NCBI GenBank assembly: GCA_937859595.1
Contig: CALMAH010000014.1
Location: forward strand, 124,001 to 188,000
Length of the DNA: 64,000 bases
Source: an uncultured Acidobacteriota bacterium
GTDB taxonomy: Bacteria > Acidobacteriota > Blastocatellia > Pyrinomonadales > Pyrinomonadaceae
Direction of reading: 5' to 3'
Shown: positions 7,480 to 15,233 of the stretch, in pieces
How the letters are laid out: each line of letters opens with the position of its first letter
How positions within the stretch are numbered: the stretch's first letter is position 1
Position numbers and translations under genes: made by a program
The notes under the pieces: generated by a model
What the model saw: only the letters and a program-made list of their open reading frames with translations
What the model was told of the DNA's origin: nothing
Database searches by the model: none

Positions 7480-8457
7480 ATGAAAAATAACATTACCGAT
7501 TTCATCAAACATCACTATCGACATTTTAATGCAGCGGCATTGGTTGACGCGGCGGAGGGGTATAAGCGGCACCTGGACGCAGGCGGGAAGATGATGATCA
7601 CGCTTGCGGGTGCGATGTCGACGGCGGAGTTGGGCCTGTCGCTGGCGGAGATGATCCGGCAGGACAAGGTGCAGATCATCTCCTGTACGGGAGCGAACCT
7701 TGAGGAGGACCTGTTCAACCTGGTCGCCCATGATTTCTACGAACGCGTGCCGAATTACCGCGACCTGACCGCCGAGGACGAGCAGGCGTTGCTTGACCGG
7801 CACATGAACCGCGTGACGGACACCTGCATACCGGAGCACGAGGCGATGCGGCGGCTGGAGAAGGCGATGGTCGAGGTCTGGACGCGGGCGGAAGCAGAAG
7901 GACAGCGATATTTTCCGCACGAATTTATGTATCAGGTGCTCAGAAACGGCTCGCTCGAAGAGCATTACCAGATCGACGTAAAAGACAGCTGGATGTACGC
8001 CGCGGCGGAGAAGAACCTGCCGATGGTCGTGCCGGGCTGGGAAGATTCGACGATGGGCAATATGTTCGCCGGCCACGTGATCACCGGTGACATCGAGAAC
8101 GTACATACGGTACGCACCGGTATCGAATACATGACGATGCTCGCCGAATGGTACACCGCGAATGCGAGCGACGATTCGACCATCGGTTTTTTCCAGATCG
8201 GCGGCGGAATAGCGGGTGATTTTCCGATCTGCGTTGTTCCGATGCTCCACCAGGACCTGCAGCGAGAGAACGTCCCCGTCTGGGGCTACTTTTGCCAGAT
8301 CTCGGATTCGACCACCTCGTACGGCTCGTATTCAGGCGCCGTCCCCAACGAAAAAATAACCTGGGGCAAACTCGAAGCCTCAACCCCAAAATTCATCGTC
8401 GAAAGCGACGCCTCAATAGTCGCCCCGCTGATGTTTGCGTATATTTTGGGTTGGTAA
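7480..8457 (+). CDS. deoxyhypusine synthase family protein lacking the usual catalytic Lys
   Basis: A 325-residue deoxyhypusine-synthase-fold protein. The NAD-binding segment SCTGANLEEDLFNLVAHDFY (residues 69-88) and the glycine-rich loop GGGIAGDF (241-248) identify the family. In eukaryotic DHS and bacterial homospermidine-forming relatives the loop carries the imine-forming lysine (GGGxxK). Here that position is Gly246, so the canonical aminobutyl transfer chemistry is doubtful. The protein ends in VAPLMFAYILGW, a complete C-terminus. Bacteria lack eIF5A, so the substrate is unknown; polyamine-related chemistry is only a family-based guess. A palindromic repeat element begins 1 bp after its stop codon. 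Confidence 0.85.
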   Translation: MKNNITDFIKHHYRHFNAAALVDAAEGYKRHLDAGGKMMITLAGAMSTAELGLSLAEMIRQDKVQIISCTGANLEEDLFNLVAHDFYERVPNYRDLTAEDEQALLDRHMNRVTDTCIPEHEAMRRLEKAMVEVWTRAEAEGQRYFPHEFMYQVLRNGSLEEHYQIDVKDSWMYAAAEKNLPMVVPGWEDSTMGNMFAGHVITGDIENVHTVRTGIEYMTMLAEWYTANASDDSTIGFFQIGGGIAGDFPICVVPMLHQDLQRENVPVWGYFCQISDSTTSYGSYSGAVPNEKITWGKLEASTPKFIVESDASIVAPLMFAYILGW

Positions 8458-8791: not shown

Positions 8792-9772
8792 ATGCGAATC
8801 ATTGTTACAGGCGGGGCGGGGTTTATCGGGAGCGCTGTTGTTTGGCGGCTGAATGAGCTGGGGTTTGACGATATTTTGATCGTGGACCGGATGGATGAGA
8901 CGGACAAGTGGAAAAATCTCGCGCCGCTGAAATTTGCCGACTATGTAGATGCGGACGATTTCGCTGATGAGCTTGATCTGCACGAAGATGCGGACTGTGT
9001 ATTTCATCTTGGGGCGTGTTCATCGACGACCGAAACCGACGCGGACTATATGTTCCGCAATAATTTTGAATATACAAAACTGCTTGCTTTGTGGACGCTC
9101 GAGAACGATAGGCGGTTTATCTATGCTTCATCGGCTGCGACCTACGGCGACGGCTCGGCAGGAATGGAGGACGGCACCGACGGCCTGGCCCGGCTTCGGC
9201 CGCTGAACGTTTACGGCTATTCGAAGCATCTTTTTGATCAATGGGCGGCGCGGAACGGGCTGTTTGACCGGATTGTCGGGCTGAGGTATTTCAACGTATT
9301 CGGGCCGAATGAGAATCATAAAGGCGACATGCGTTCGCTGGTCAATAAAGCCTTCGGGCAAATAAATTCGACCGGCAAGCTCCAGCTTTTCAAAAGTGCA
9401 AACCCCGATTACGCCGATGGCGAATTCGGACGCGATTTTGTTTATGTAAAGGACGCTGTCGATATGACATTGCATTTTATGGAAAACGGTGTCGGGGGGC
9501 TCTTTAACGTCGGTTCGGGCCGAATGAATACCTGGAACGCCCTGGCCGATGCGATCTTCAGGGCGCTTGACCTGCCGAAAAATGTTGAATTCATCGATAT
9601 GCCGGAGCATCTGCGTGATCGCTATCAATACCACACATTAGCCGATCTCACCCGCATCCGCGATGCCGGATATACCGCTGAGACCATCCCGCTTGACGAG
9701 GCCGTTGCCGATTATGTAAGGAACTATCTTGTCCCGGGCAGGCACCTCGGCGACCAGATCCGCGACGAATGA
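8792..9772 (+). CDS. hldD: ADP-L-glycero-D-manno-heptose-6-epimerase
   Basis: An extended SDR epimerase of about 326 residues. It converts ADP-D-glycero- to ADP-L-glycero-D-manno-heptose for the lipopolysaccharide inner core. MRIIVTGGAGFIGSAVV is the NAD(P)-binding start, HLGACSSTTETD and YASSAATYGDG are hallmark HldD segments, and YGYSKHLFD carries the catalytic Tyr-Lys. RYFNVFGPNENHKGDM is diagnostic. The start at 8792 is preferred over the longer frame from 8762, which adds ten unrelated residues. The stop overlaps the next gene by 4 bp. It implies an outer membrane with heptose-containing LPS. Confidence 0.94.
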   Translation: MRIIVTGGAGFIGSAVVWRLNELGFDDILIVDRMDETDKWKNLAPLKFADYVDADDFADELDLHEDADCVFHLGACSSTTETDADYMFRNNFEYTKLLALWTLENDRRFIYASSAATYGDGSAGMEDGTDGLARLRPLNVYGYSKHLFDQWAARNGLFDRIVGLRYFNVFGPNENHKGDMRSLVNKAFGQINSTGKLQLFKSANPDYADGEFGRDFVYVKDAVDMTLHFMENGVGGLFNVGSGRMNTWNALADAIFRALDLPKNVEFIDMPEHLRDRYQYHTLADLTRIRDAGYTAETIPLDEAVADYVRNYLVPGRHLGDQIRDE

Positions 9773-10584
9773 CCCAGGCAAATTCGAAAGTGAAAAAAAA
9801 GGCCAATCCCGGATGGCAGGGCACGGTGTTTCTCTGGGAGGAGCATGGCCTGTTCGTCGGTAATGCCGGTGACGCCGAACTGCATGAGTCACCGGCGATA
9901 AAAATTTGTATCTCGATCGACGGCGGATTCCGGCTTCGGCAATCCGAAGCGGAAAAATGGGAAGCCTTTAACGCTGCGATAATTCCGGCAGGCTCTTCTC
10001 ATGCCATCAATGGCGGCGGCAATCGGATGGCAATGGTGCTTCTCGCTCCTGAAGGCCGGCTCGGCAAGAGCATTTTCGGCCTGGCAAAAGGCGATGCGAT
10101 CATCCCGATTGAGGGCGATGTGCGGGAAAGACTGCGTTCGGGGTCATTTTTCAATACAGCATGGACCGACGGCACCGACATAGACCGGAAAACGGGCGAG
10201 ATAGTCGCTCTGCTCAAGGAGCATCTTGCTGTCGATGCTCAGCAGGAGGGCATCGATCCGCGTGTCGAACAGAGTATCGAGTGGATACGCGCAGGCCGCG
10301 AAAATGGCATCCTGGTACGCGACATAGCCGCGGAGGTCGATCTTTCCGAAAGCCGGTTCTCGCACCTTTTTTCCGAACACGTTCGCGTTCCCGTCCGCCG
10401 TTATTTGCTTTGGCTGCGGCTGCGTGATGCGCTTCACCTGCTGGCGTCTGCCGATTCGCTTACCGAGGCGGCACATTCGGCCGGATTTGCAGATTCTTCT
10501 CATCTTACGCGTACATTTCGCACCGCACTTGGCATTGCTCCTTCCGATCTGGTTCGCGAGAGCCGTCTCATCTCTTTCCTTTAA
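9769..10584 (+). CDS. AraC-family transcriptional regulator
   Basis: A 271-residue regulator. The N-terminal half is a cupin-like sensor (AIKICISIDGGFRLR, then AAIIPAGSSHAINGGGNRMAMVLLAPEGR). The C-terminal 100 residues contain the two helix-turn-helices of AraC proteins: IAAEVDLSESRFSHLFSEHV, then LTEAAHSAGFADSSHLTRTF ending in GIAPSDLVRES. It overlaps hldD by ATGA, so the two are probably co-transcribed. It stands just upstream of the ether-lipid genes, which it could control. Ligand unknown. Confidence 0.88.
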   Translation: MTQANSKVKKKANPGWQGTVFLWEEHGLFVGNAGDAELHESPAIKICISIDGGFRLRQSEAEKWEAFNAAIIPAGSSHAINGGGNRMAMVLLAPEGRLGKSIFGLAKGDAIIPIEGDVRERLRSGSFFNTAWTDGTDIDRKTGEIVALLKEHLAVDAQQEGIDPRVEQSIEWIRAGRENGILVRDIAAEVDLSESRFSHLFSEHVRVPVRRYLLWLRLRDALHLLASADSLTEAAHSAGFADSSHLTRTFRTALGIAPSDLVRESRLISFL

Positions 10585-10634: not shown

Positions 10635-12404
10635 GTGGAAAAAAGAGGGCGTATCTATCCCGAGCCTGTAACGATCGGGGCTAATGAAGTGGAAAGTCTT
10701 GAAAACTGGGGCTTTCGCGACACTTCATTTGCGATAAACGAAAATGGAAATGTAACGATACTTGGAAACCGCTACGAACTCAGCGGCAAGGAACTTCCGC
10801 GCCTTTTGCCATGGATACGGGAGACACTTGATATTGATCCGGATATCAATGACCGCTTTGAGCCGCGCTATCCCCCGGAAATACCTGAGCCCGTGGATAA
10901 TGCCGACTTTGTCGGTTCCATATCGGATTTTCTCGCACCGGAACAAATAGAAAGGGACGCTGACAGCCGCATACGCCATGGCCACGGCCATACGCAGGAA
11001 GAGATGTTTGCCATCAAATATGGCAACCTGGGCCGCGTTCCCGACCTTGTGGTCTATCCCGAAACCGAAGAACAGGTGGCAATGCTGGTCGATGCAGCAA
11101 AGCGGACAAATGTGGTCCTCATTCCTTTTGGCGGTGGAACGAATGTAACGGACGCTCTTCGCTGCCGTGAAAACGAATCGAGGATGATAGTTTCGGTCGA
11201 TATGCGGCGTCTGAGTCGGATAGTCTGGATAGACAAGGAAAATATGATCGCCTCGATTCAGGCCGGCGCGGTTGGACGCCACTTAATGCAGCAGCTTGCC
11301 GAATATGGCGTCACCATGGGGCATGAACCCGATAGTGTCGAATTTTCCACGCTGGGCGGCTGGATCGCCACAAATGCCAGCGGGATGAAAAAGAACAAAT
11401 ATGGCAACATAGAGGACATCGTGGTCGATATCGCGGTCGCTACGGCAGATGGCCGGCTCGAACGCCTGAATCTGGCCCCTCGTGAATCCGTCGGATCGGA
11501 TATGAGGCGGCTGATATTTGGTTCGGAGGGGACGCTGGGTATCGTCACTTCAGCCACTGTAAAACTCTTTCCTCTGCCCGAAGCTCAGGAATATGGCTCC
11601 GTGCTTTTTCCCAGCTATGAGGAAGGATTTGCATTTATGCAGGAGCTTGTCCGGACCTCCCGGCCCCCTGCGAGCTGTCGGCTGGTCGATAATCTTCAGT
11701 TTCAGTTTGGCCTTGCGCTCAAACCCGCAGCCAGCGGTACCGCCGCCCTAAAAGGCAGGATAGAAAAATTCTTTGTTACTAAGATAAAAGGGTTTCAGCC
11801 TTATAAGATGGTCGCTCTGACGCTTGTATTCGAGGGCACCAGGGCCGACGTGGAACAGCAGAAACGAGATGTTTACCGCATTGCAGCCAGGCACGGCGGT
11901 ATGAAGGCCGGCAGCGAGAACGGCCGGCGGGGGTACCAGCTTACATATAGCATTGCCTATATTCGCGATTTTCTGATGAATTACTACATCATCGCGGAAT
12001 CGTTTGAAACAAGCTGTGCCTGGAGCGATGCATTGGCGGTCTGTGACAACGTCAAACGTGTTCTTACCGAGGAGTATAAAAAACGCGGCCTGCCCGGAAA
12101 GCCGTTTATAACATCGCGGATCACGCAACTTTATCAGACCGGCGTAGCTATTTATTTCTATTTCGGATTCTACTTCAAGGGGGTTGAAGCACCGTCACAG
12201 GTCTATCTGGAGCTTGAGAATATCGCACGGGCTGAGATACTTCGGTCGGGGGGGTCGCTGTCGCATCATCACGGTGTGGGCAAGATACGCGAGGGCTTTC
12301 TTTCGGAAATAATGTCCGAAACTTCGCTGAAATGGAAAAAGGCTGTGAAAGCGAGTCTCGATCCCGACAATATCTTTGGTGCCGGAAATCAAAACCTGGG
12401 TTGA
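10635..12404 (+). CDS. alkyldihydroxyacetonephosphate synthase (AGPS-type)
   Basis: An FAD enzyme of 589 residues. It matches eukaryotic alkyl-DHAP synthase along its whole length as I recall that sequence: WGFRDTSF, the PCMH-type FAD segment IPFGGGTNVTDAL, GHEPDSVEFSTLGGWIATNASGM, NKYGNIEDIVVDI, FGSEGTLGIVTSATVK, LTYSIAYIRDF, ESFETSCAW, and GGSLSHHHGVGK (about 539-550). The enzyme swaps the acyl chain of acyl-DHAP for a fatty alcohol, creating the glycerol ether bond. The length suits the mature enzyme without a peroxisomal leader. The start is a GTG at 10635 with no strong ribosome site. An acyltransferase follows after 9 bp. Confidence 0.92.
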   Translation: MEKRGRIYPEPVTIGANEVESLENWGFRDTSFAINENGNVTILGNRYELSGKELPRLLPWIRETLDIDPDINDRFEPRYPPEIPEPVDNADFVGSISDFLAPEQIERDADSRIRHGHGHTQEEMFAIKYGNLGRVPDLVVYPETEEQVAMLVDAAKRTNVVLIPFGGGTNVTDALRCRENESRMIVSVDMRRLSRIVWIDKENMIASIQAGAVGRHLMQQLAEYGVTMGHEPDSVEFSTLGGWIATNASGMKKNKYGNIEDIVVDIAVATADGRLERLNLAPRESVGSDMRRLIFGSEGTLGIVTSATVKLFPLPEAQEYGSVLFPSYEEGFAFMQELVRTSRPPASCRLVDNLQFQFGLALKPAASGTAALKGRIEKFFVTKIKGFQPYKMVALTLVFEGTRADVEQQKRDVYRIAARHGGMKAGSENGRRGYQLTYSIAYIRDFLMNYYIIAESFETSCAWSDALAVCDNVKRVLTEEYKKRGLPGKPFITSRITQLYQTGVAIYFYFGFYFKGVEAPSQVYLELENIARAEILRSGGSLSHHHGVGKIREGFLSEIMSETSLKWKKAVKASLDPDNIFGAGNQNLG

Positions 12405-12413
12405 TGTTAAGAA

Positions 12414-13268
12414 ATGCTTAGAGCCGAAAGACTTATTGAGATCATCCGCAATAGCGTTCCTGCACGCAAGATTTCCGATCCGCCGCTCTGGCAGATCGAA
12501 AAGACACGTTTTCAGGCGAATGTCTGCCGAGTGTTGCTTCTTCCGCTCGGAGGCATATTGATCGTTCTGATGAGATATTTCCGAGGTTATAGCATCGAGA
12601 ACATGGCGGAGACTCGCCGGCAATTCAGGGAAATATGGAAAGAGAAGGAACTGAAAGGCGTCCCGCTGCTGATATGCGCCAATCACCTTACATTTATCGA
12701 CTCCGCTCTGCTGATCTGGGCATTCGGTTCGAACATCTGGTACTTGTTCAACTATCGGGCCTTTATGTGGAATTTACCGGCAGGCGATTTCTTCAAGAAA
12801 AGATTCATTTATCATGCGGTCCTGTATCTGACAAAATGTATATTTATTGACCGCAATGGGTCTTCGGCCCATAAGAACGCGGTGCTCAATCTGTGCCGGT
12901 ATCTGCTTGAGAAAGGAAACGTGGTGCTCATCTTTCCCGAAGGGCAGCGCAGCCGGACAGGCCTCTTCGATGTTGAAAGACTCCGTTTCGGTGCCGGAAA
13001 GATAATTACGGCCTTGGGCGATGCAAAAGTGCTGTGTGTGTATATCCGAAGTCCGCTGCAGAAAGGTTATTCGAATTACCCGCCGAGAGGGTCTCGTTTT
13101 CAGATACAAATGAAGGTGATATCACCGGAGGTTTCCACTGAAACTTCGCCAAGACGCGCCAGCATCTCCGCTGTATACCAGATAGGCAGGGCGATCAGTG
13201 AAATGGAAGAAAACTTTTTTGCTCGTAACCCGGACGCCCGCCCTCCGATCCCGTTATCCGATGTCTGA
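12414..13268 (+). CDS. PlsC-type glycerolipid acyltransferase
   Basis: A 284-residue acyltransferase. The catalytic motif NHLTFID (HxxxxD) is near residue 88 and the substrate motif FPEGQRSRTG near 180. A hydrophobic segment near residues 38-60 suggests membrane attachment. It starts 9 bp after the alkyl-DHAP synthase and overlaps the next gene by 8 bp. In this setting it could acylate DHAP (giving the synthase its substrate) or acylate the 1-alkyl-glycerol-3-phosphate product; sequence alone does not decide. Confidence 0.88.
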   Translation: MLRAERLIEIIRNSVPARKISDPPLWQIEKTRFQANVCRVLLLPLGGILIVLMRYFRGYSIENMAETRRQFREIWKEKELKGVPLLICANHLTFIDSALLIWAFGSNIWYLFNYRAFMWNLPAGDFFKKRFIYHAVLYLTKCIFIDRNGSSAHKNAVLNLCRYLLEKGNVVLIFPEGQRSRTGLFDVERLRFGAGKIITALGDAKVLCVYIRSPLQKGYSNYPPRGSRFQIQMKVISPEVSTETSPRRASISAVYQIGRAISEMEENFFARNPDARPPIPLSDV

Positions 13269-14049
13269 GACCGCACCATTGGCCATGATAACCGGCGCAT
13301 CATCTGGAATAGGCCGGGAGATATCGGCAGAATTTGCCCGTTTGGGTTATCGGACATTTTTGACCGGCAGAGATGAGGCAAGATTGAATGAGGTCGCTCT
13401 TGAACTTGGCAAGAAGTTTGGGACCGAATCTTATGTTCAATGTGCCGACCTGGCCAACGGCAATGACAGAGAAAAGCTGGTGGAAAAAGCAGCCGAGCTT
13501 GCCCCGAATGTGCTTGTAAATAATGCAGGATTTGGTGTGAAAGGTGTTTTTTCGGAGACCTCGCTCTCGGCCGAACTGGATATGATAGAGGTGCAGATCG
13601 CGGCCATGCTCGCGCTTACAAAAGCTGTTCTTCCCGGTATGAAAATCAGAAAAGAGGGCCTGATCCTGAATGTCGCCTCGGTCTATTCTTTTTCGCCGGT
13701 TCCCCAGCAGGCAGCCTATGCTGCAGCAAAATCGTTTATCTTCTCCTTTTCAACCTCGCTTAGAGATGAGTTGAAAGCGGACGGGATAATGGTCTCTGTC
13801 CTTGCTCCCGGCATCACACAGACCGAATTTCGTGCACGTGCCGGCATTCCCGATATGAAAGATAGCGGTATGTCGGCCTGTGAAGTAGCCAGGATAGGTG
13901 TAGGTCAGGCATTGAAAGGAAAGCCGCTGATAGTTCCCGGTTGGCAAAACAAACTGTTCGTATTTCTCGTCAGACATTTCCCGGTAGATCTTTCCATAGC
14001 CCTGATAAATCTAATAAATTCCAAGCGTGGTGTCCGTACTAAAACCTGA
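13261..14049 (+). CDS. short-chain dehydrogenase, candidate alkyl/acyl-DHAP reductase
   Basis: A classical SDR of about 262 residues: cofactor loop TGASSGIG near residue 12, NNAG near 84, and catalytic YAAAK near 150. ATG 13261 overlaps the acyltransferase stop by 8 bp, so the two are translationally coupled. The ether-lipid pathway needs an NADPH-dependent reductase of 1-alkyl-DHAP, and the mammalian enzyme for this step (DHRS7B) is also an SDR. Assignment to that step is from context. A hydrophobic C-terminal part (KLFVFLVRHFPVDLSIALINLI) may place it at the membrane. Confidence 0.85.
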   Translation: MSETAPLAMITGASSGIGREISAEFARLGYRTFLTGRDEARLNEVALELGKKFGTESYVQCADLANGNDREKLVEKAAELAPNVLVNNAGFGVKGVFSETSLSAELDMIEVQIAAMLALTKAVLPGMKIRKEGLILNVASVYSFSPVPQQAAYAAAKSFIFSFSTSLRDELKADGIMVSVLAPGITQTEFRARAGIPDMKDSGMSACEVARIGVGQALKGKPLIVPGWQNKLFVFLVRHFPVDLSIALINLINSKRGVRTKT

Positions 14050-14216
14050 CGCCGAGAGCTCCCTGCTAATGTTCTATTCGGTTCTGCTTATCTCTTAGCA
14101 TGTTGTAAAAGCCTCTTTTTCTACTGTATTGGGATCGGGTACGTTCAACAAAGCGGCCGGTTTTGTGCAAAACTATACTTGTTGGAAGAAAGTGCGATAA
14201 TTTTAAATCGGAGGTT

Positions 14217-15233
14217 ATGCTTATATTACACCTTTCTGTAAATGCGGTCCGGTGGGCCTTAAAGATCAGCATTCTAGCCGCCATCGTTGCCGTTTCGCTT
14301 TTCTTTGCAAACAGCCAACTGATCGTCGCCGAACCGATCATTGCTACAGCCGTTACGATAGACCTCATTCTCACTTTGCCGGTCGCCTATTATTTCTTTA
14401 TTCGAAACTCGGCTATTCCCAGAATAACGGTTGTTCCGGTTTTTCTTGCCGCAGTGCTTTTAGCGTCGTTCATCTTGCCTTCTGATGATCGAATCCTACT
14501 GGGTCTTGCGGTCGCCTATGCGGTCCCGGCAGCCGAACTTTTTGTACTTGGGTATCTTGGATACCGGGTTTATCTCACTCGAAGGGCATTCGGTAAGCTG
14601 GCCAGGACCGGCCGCGATCTGATGGAGCGTCTCCGCATGGCTTTTGTCTCCGAACTGAAGCCTGCTGTTGTCGCCCGGGCCGCAGCTTTTGAGATCGGAG
14701 TGTTTTTCCTGATCTTGTTTGTCTGGCAAAGGCCCTCAACGGCCGGGTTCTCTTACCATCGAAATAACTGCGCGATCCCGATCCTGATAGTCCTGCTGTT
14801 CCTGCTCATAGCTGAGACAATTGTCGCTCACTTCCTGCTTGCTATGTTTAGCCCGATAGCAGCGTGGATAGCAACCGGTGTCAGTATTTATTTAGCTATA
14901 CAGGTCATTGCACATTTCAAGGCTCTTTTTATGAGGCCCATCGTTGTCACAGAAGATGCGGTCCTGCTTCGATGTGGGATCATGGGAGATGCTTTTATCG
15001 AGAGGGGATCTATCGCCCGAGTCGAAAAGCTCTCTCGATTTCCGCAGAACACAACAAACGAGATAGCTATTTCACCACTCGGCTCGCTTGTCCAGCCTAA
15101 CGTGAGGATCGAGATGAAGCAGGTAACAGCCTTTTACAGCATATACGGTCTTAAGAAGGAATATTCTGCGATTTCGTTCAGCGTAGATGAACCCGACAGA
15201 TTTCTTGCATTGCTCGAACAAAGATCGCATTAA
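14217..15233 (+). CDS. multi-pass membrane protein with PH-like tail
   Basis: A protein of about 338 residues with roughly six hydrophobic segments (for example LILHLSVNAVRWALKISILAAIVAVSLFF and ILIVLLFLLIAETIVAHFLLAMF). It ends in a soluble part beginning RPIVVTEDAVLLRCGIMGDAFIERGSIARVEKL that resembles bacterial PH-like domains. The start is ATG 14217 behind GGAGG; the frame to 14163 is longer but unsupported. It lies 167 bp after the SDR and 3 bp before ribF. Function unknown. Confidence 0.75.
   Translation: MLILHLSVNAVRWALKISILAAIVAVSLFFANSQLIVAEPIIATAVTIDLILTLPVAYYFFIRNSAIPRITVVPVFLAAVLLASFILPSDDRILLGLAVAYAVPAAELFVLGYLGYRVYLTRRAFGKLARTGRDLMERLRMAFVSELKPAVVARAAAFEIGVFFLILFVWQRPSTAGFSYHRNNCAIPILIVLLFLLIAETIVAHFLLAMFSPIAAWIATGVSIYLAIQVIAHFKALFMRPIVVTEDAVLLRCGIMGDAFIERGSIARVEKLSRFPQNTTNEIAISPLGSLVQPNVRIEMKQVTAFYSIYGLKKEYSAISFSVDEPDRFLALLEQRSH

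Follow-up and report, generated by a model that had tools for sequence, protein, structure and literature searches.

An AraC-associated alkyl-DHAP synthase cassette in Pyrinomonadaceae: a probable ether-lipid route beside ElbD

The closest described counterpart of the locus presented here is the three-gene AGPS operon of Myxococcus xanthus, MXAN_1676-1675-1674, which exists beside ElbD (PMC9131029). AGPS of M. xanthus shares about 42% identity with its human counterpart, an acyltransferase domain encoded in the operon has been called GNPAT-like in a review, and disruption of MXAN_1676 lowers the ether-lipid content only slightly (PMC9131029). ElbD of M. xanthus has been described as a protein with FAR, Sterile, AMP-binding, ACP and acyltransferase domains (PMC9131029). 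The mammalian peroxisomal set comprises GNPAT, AGPS, FAR1 and DHRS7B, the last being a reductase of the SDR class (PMC13200781). Cultured Pyrinomonas contains glyceryl ethers with iso-C15, iso-C17 and iso-diabolic chains (PMC4644332), and ether-bound iso-diabolic acid is present in members of subdivision 4 of the Acidobacteria (PMC4644332; PMC10087280). Homologues of agps have been mentioned in some subdivision 4 Acidobacteria, and the role of the elb and agps genes in acidobacterial ether lipids has not been conclusively shown (PMC11868695). The PlsA/Ger ester reductases likewise yield ether lipids from glycerolipids, by means of genes and chemistry unrelated to the cassette described below.

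The host is an acidobacterium of the family Pyrinomonadaceae, subdivision 4. The window, i.e. the whole stretch of 64,000 nucleotides that was analysed, contains a cassette of four genes:

9769..10584, + strand: AraC-family transcriptional regulator, which opens the cassette (PF12833 HTH_18, E=6.5e-19)
10635..12404, + strand: AGPS (alkyl-DHAP synthase), FAD-linked, GTG start, 589 aa (PF01565 and PF02913)
12414..13268, + strand: PlsC/AGPAT-type acyltransferase, 284 aa (PF01553, E=7.9e-14; motifs NHX4D and FPEGQRS)
13261..14049, + strand: classical SDR, putative alkyl-DHAP reductase, ATG start, 262 aa (PF00106, E=1.4e-43; motifs TGASSGIG, NNAG and YAAAK)

The initial annotation had described the last three genes as a compact trio. 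Their positions and spacing are as it gave them, with 9 bp between the AGPS and acyltransferase genes, an 8-bp overlap of the latter with the SDR gene, and all three on the + strand; the AGPS motifs that it listed (GGTNV, GHEPDSVEFSTLGGW, FETS and SHHHGVGK) are all found in the translated reading frame. The AraC-type gene directly upstream of AGPS, which was absent from that trio, is part of the unit and adjoins AGPS at every trio locus inspected. Two genes upstream of the cassette (window 7480-8457) lies a gene for a deoxyhypusine synthase-like protein (PF01916), 86-97% conserved in relatives; this is probably a polyamine enzyme, odd as the name sounds in a bacterium. Downstream, a membrane-type 356-aa reading frame (14163-15233) separates the cassette from ribF. 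As it has no family match in Pfam or NCBIfam and no counterpart in related loci, it was not counted as part of the cassette. A predicted 190-aa membrane protein is encoded near the cassette at four other loci (L036:8729-9301, L035:8621-9199, L034:4500-5021 and L077:8945-9493); it has no Pfam match, and the window has no counterpart of it close to the cassette. It is also encoded at a cassette-free site (L128:3128-3691) and was rejected as a cassette member, since it occurs without AGPS too.

Several observations identify the flavoenzyme as a true AGPS. It contains both the FAD_binding_4 and the FAD-oxidase_C domain, and its nearest match is AGPS, not GlcD or lactate dehydrogenase. In phmmer searches of the PDB it matches mammalian AGPS (4bby) with 564 bits over residues 18-587 and Dictyostelium ADPS (2uuu) with 324 bits, whereas the top non-AGPS chain reaches merely 114 bits; its identity to the guinea-pig enzyme is 46%. 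In an alignment of 34 sequences, all nine positions that were checked (guinea-pig T309, N324, R419, R515, S527, Y578 and H615-617) are kept in the window AGPS. They are also kept across the acidobacterial AGPS set, bar one S/T swap in a second lineage, and this residue set is not kept in two FAD oxidases of the same genome (L001 and L002). We take R419, R515, S527, Y578 and H615-H617 to be active-site residues; two of these positions, 419 and 578, are those at which PDB chains 4bc7 and 4bca depart from 4bby, presumably through activity-relevant AGPS mutations. A generic glycolate or lactate oxidase is ruled out by the PDB bit scores, by the NCBIfam GlcD models (161 bits against a cut-off of 568) and by the maximum-likelihood tree, in which outgroup FAD oxidases lie far from AGPS. 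The assignment as a synthase made in the initial annotation thus holds, and we strongly infer from homology that the enzyme would form alkyl-DHAP.

The same annotation had singled the gene out as eukaryote-like. In the tree, however, the window AGPS falls within acidobacterial AGPS, in a region shared with sequences from Myxococcota and Deltaproteobacteria; a further acidobacterial lineage, whose members share 47-49% identity with the window AGPS, is separate. Identity to the guinea-pig enzyme is 42-48% for every acidobacterial, myxococcotal and deltaproteobacterial AGPS in the comparison, so that the term describes the family and not this gene. For the same reason a recent transfer from eukaryotes is unsupported; where the long eukaryotic branches belong in the tree is unsure. 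A plasmid search gave a single AGPS-like match, from Streptomyces (33%), which is nearer to the Dictyostelium enzyme.

The full AraC-AGPS-acyltransferase-SDR order is present in the window and at L034/L076, L037/L079 and L077, and the cassette minus the SDR at L035 and L036/L078. The trio is a real co-transmitted unit, but in its exact form a narrow one, limited to the host genus and one sister genus. The broadly conserved core is the AGPS-SDR pair. At loci of other Acidobacteriota (L038-L045 and L050) an SDR 46-55% identical to that of the window directly follows AGPS, and an SDR with 26-29% identity occupies this place in the second AGPS lineage (L082-L090). The adjacency thus spans two acidobacterial AGPS lineages and most acidobacterial AGPS loci. 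Within the Pyrinomonadaceae AGPS is absent from 58 of the 60 genomes sampled. At the corresponding site of 11 AGPS-negative congeners there is no match to the AraC, AGPS or acyltransferase gene and no SDR above 31% identity, and in four of them the matches to the flanking epimerase and ribF genes are 7 bp apart. As all cassette genes are missing together, the cassette comes and goes as a unit, present or absent as one block at one site. In the sister genus (L037/L079) it stands behind the same upstream genes, which suggests an old cassette that has been repeatedly lost rather than newly gained.

The SDR carries all classical motifs of its class. Its PDB matches are generic SDRs only, and its top named NCBIfam relative is a mycolate reductase, with a score below the cut-off. 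In the genomes searched, copies 49-60% identical to it occur in AGPS-positive genomes only, and AGPS-negative genomes have just paralogues of 31-39%. Its position beside AGPS across the phylum, its enzyme class and the SDR nature of DHRS7B suggest that it would reduce alkyl-DHAP.

The acyltransferase had been assigned the formation of acyl-DHAP in the initial annotation, a role that its motifs do not favour. Motif I reads NHLTFID and motif III PEGQRS, which is the PlsC/AGPAT type, and not the HRSxxDF and EGTRSR of the GPAT/GNPAT type; no PDB chain matched the protein. We favour, at about even odds, acylation of 1-alkyl-G3P at the sn-2 position over acyl-DHAP formation. The alternative, in which the protein is a DHAP acyltransferase and the trio a complete animal-type peroxisomal GNPAT-AGPS-reductase set, is somewhat doubtful, but several observations lend it weight. 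AGPS requires acyl-DHAP, and the acyltransferase gene lies only 9 bp downstream of it. Orthologues are strictly tied to AGPS: among 28 genomes searched they occur in five, exactly the AGPS-positive Pyrinomonadaceae. The threonine of motif III, a residue of the acceptor-binding motif (PMC4280512), is replaced by glutamine (PEGQRS) in all six aligned orthologues, where most of the family carries PEGT, and this hints at an unusual acceptor. Against a GNPAT function stand motif I, which differs from the HRSYxDF that accompanies FFIEGxRSR in the acyltransferase domain of myxococcotal FAR-AT fusions, and the lack of an acyltransferase at most AGPS-SDR loci. The host genome has six further PF01553 matches, one of them within ElbD, and these other proteins could supply the remaining acylation. 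No enzyme of the GNPAT kind could be assigned to acyl-DHAP formation, and this counts against the ether-lipid route outlined below.

The initial annotation had seen no fatty-alcohol-forming reductase in the window, and no fatty-acyl reductase (FAR) was found near the cassette. The host genome does encode a FAR domain, outside the window, in a 1500-aa ElbD (G000:C10:32820-37319) with FAR (NAD_binding_4), Sterile, AMP-binding, ACP and acyltransferase domains and no AGPS domain. The stand-alone system that had been proposed is thus not supported. Each of the 25 family genomes tested has ElbD, with or without AGPS, and in two of them it is in two pieces. Among 396 Acidobacteriota, a FAR of the ElbD type was found in 16 of the 17 genomes with AGPS and in 45 of the 379 without it (Fisher p 2e-13 with kinship ignored). 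Counted by family, 7 of the 8 AGPS families have it (p about 4e-5, assuming a total of at least 86 families). ElbD is encoded upstream of the AGPS-SDR pair at one locus (L089), and FAR genes lie close to the pair at three others (L040, L041 and L045). The FAR domain in the genome, its co-occurrence with AGPS and its proximity to AGPS-SDR loci indicate that a supply of fatty alcohol is available, and ElbD may release the alcohol used by AGPS. In the neighbourhood of ElbD (L059, G000:C10:24000-42592) a 165-aa membrane-type reading frame overlaps the ElbD start, and an M16 peptidase gene and an epimerase-type gene follow downstream. A 929-aa protein that resembles the AMP-binding/ACP/acyltransferase portion of ElbD but lacks the FAR domain is encoded at G000:C38:73737-76268 (L137). 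The PlsA/Ger domain DUF2229 has no match in the host genome, and the same search matched in four control genomes; PF10520, of the plasmalogen desaturase CarF/PEDS1, matched neither the host genome nor the control genomes.

By combining these observations, it is possible to outline a route. AGPS would replace the acyl chain in acyl-DHAP by a fatty alcohol, as its homology and fully conserved active site suggest. The alcohol would come from the FAR domain of the unlinked ElbD or from another FAR. The SDR, judged by its adjacency to AGPS across the phylum and its enzyme class, would then convert alkyl-DHAP to 1-alkyl-G3P. In the next step the acyltransferase would most likely attach an acyl chain at sn-2 of this product; a less likely role is to make acyl-DHAP. 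The regulator of the operon is probably the AraC protein. This route would run beside the family-wide ElbD route, as in Myxococcus xanthus.

That the cassette is a dedicated 1-O-alkyl glycerolipid route beside ElbD is, judged from the genes, probable. The identity of AGPS and its intact active-site residues speak for it, as do the AGPS-SDR adjacency in two lineages, the all-or-none occurrence of the cassette at one site, and the FAR domain of the host together with the co-occurrence of FAR and AGPS across the phylum. The glyceryl ethers of cultured Pyrinomonas (PMC4644332) and the minor in vivo effect that a bacterial AGPS has on the ether lipids of M. xanthus (PMC9131029) point the same way; in view of the latter, a secondary role for the acidobacterial cassette is unsurprising. 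On the other hand, since most Pyrinomonadaceae sampled are without AGPS, the known ether lipids of the family are explained more simply by ElbD. Moreover, L035 and L036 have no SDR beside AGPS, and the genome of L036 (G201) has none above 38% identity. It is quite unlikely that the cassette instead builds the ether bonds of membrane-spanning iso-diabolic (brGDGT-like) lipids, with the alcohol provided by a long diol or a hydroxy acid, in place of ordinary monoalkyl lipids. The ether-bound iso-diabolic acid of subdivision 4 members (PMC4644332; PMC10087280) would fit, but the cassette genes carry no information on chain type, and such lipids do not in general require an AGPS, since most members of the family lack one. 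A flavoenzyme that has drifted to another reaction, such as oxidation of a different lipid, in a cassette not for ether lipids at all, is very unlikely. The relation of the SDR to mycolate reductase might be cited in its favour; the nine kept positions, near-complete across the acidobacterial set, and the co-occurrence of FAR with AGPS argue against it.

The initial annotation had suggested an undescribed route, which is not supported with the M. xanthus operon (PMC9131029) and the subdivision 4 agps homologues (PMC11868695) in print. Like that three-gene operon, the trio starts with AGPS, includes an acyltransferase and a protein of the NAD(P)-dependent reductase type, and exists beside ElbD. 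The second gene of M. xanthus, however, is a FAR-GNPAT fusion, whereas the acidobacterial one encodes a stand-alone PlsC-type acyltransferase of 284 aa without a FAR domain. The third is an extended epimerase/dehydratase, whereas the acidobacterial protein is a classical SDR (PF00106) with no PF01370 match. The AraC gene is a further difference. The M. xanthus arrangement, i.e. AGPS, FAR-acyltransferase fusion and epimerase-type gene, recurs in other Myxococcota/Deltaproteobacteria (L046-L048). With the mammalian set the cassette shares the AGPS active-site residues and an SDR-class reductase; it differs from that set in its acyltransferase, which lacks a GNPAT-type motif I, in having no FAR, and in being a bacterial operon. 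The ElbD system, in the same host genome and with an epimerase-type gene nearby, is unlinked to the cassette. In the part of the literature covered, neither the AraC-AGPS-PlsC-SDR form nor AGPS-SDR as a conserved acidobacterial core was found to be described.

We propose tentatively that some acidobacteria owe an animal-like alkyl-DHAP route, additional to ElbD, to an AraC-regulated cassette that is gained or lost as one block. Its acyltransferase would have a new acceptor specificity (T to Q in motif III), and ElbD would supply the fatty alcohol. Next to the AGPS operon of Myxococcus, the cassette represents a second arrangement in bacteria, and it has a bearing on how the animal pathway arose. 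Since it is cleanly present or absent between congeners while ElbD is constant, what AGPS contributes can be tested directly, and the way in which acidobacteria form ether bonds matters for the interpretation of branched ether lipids as climate proxies.
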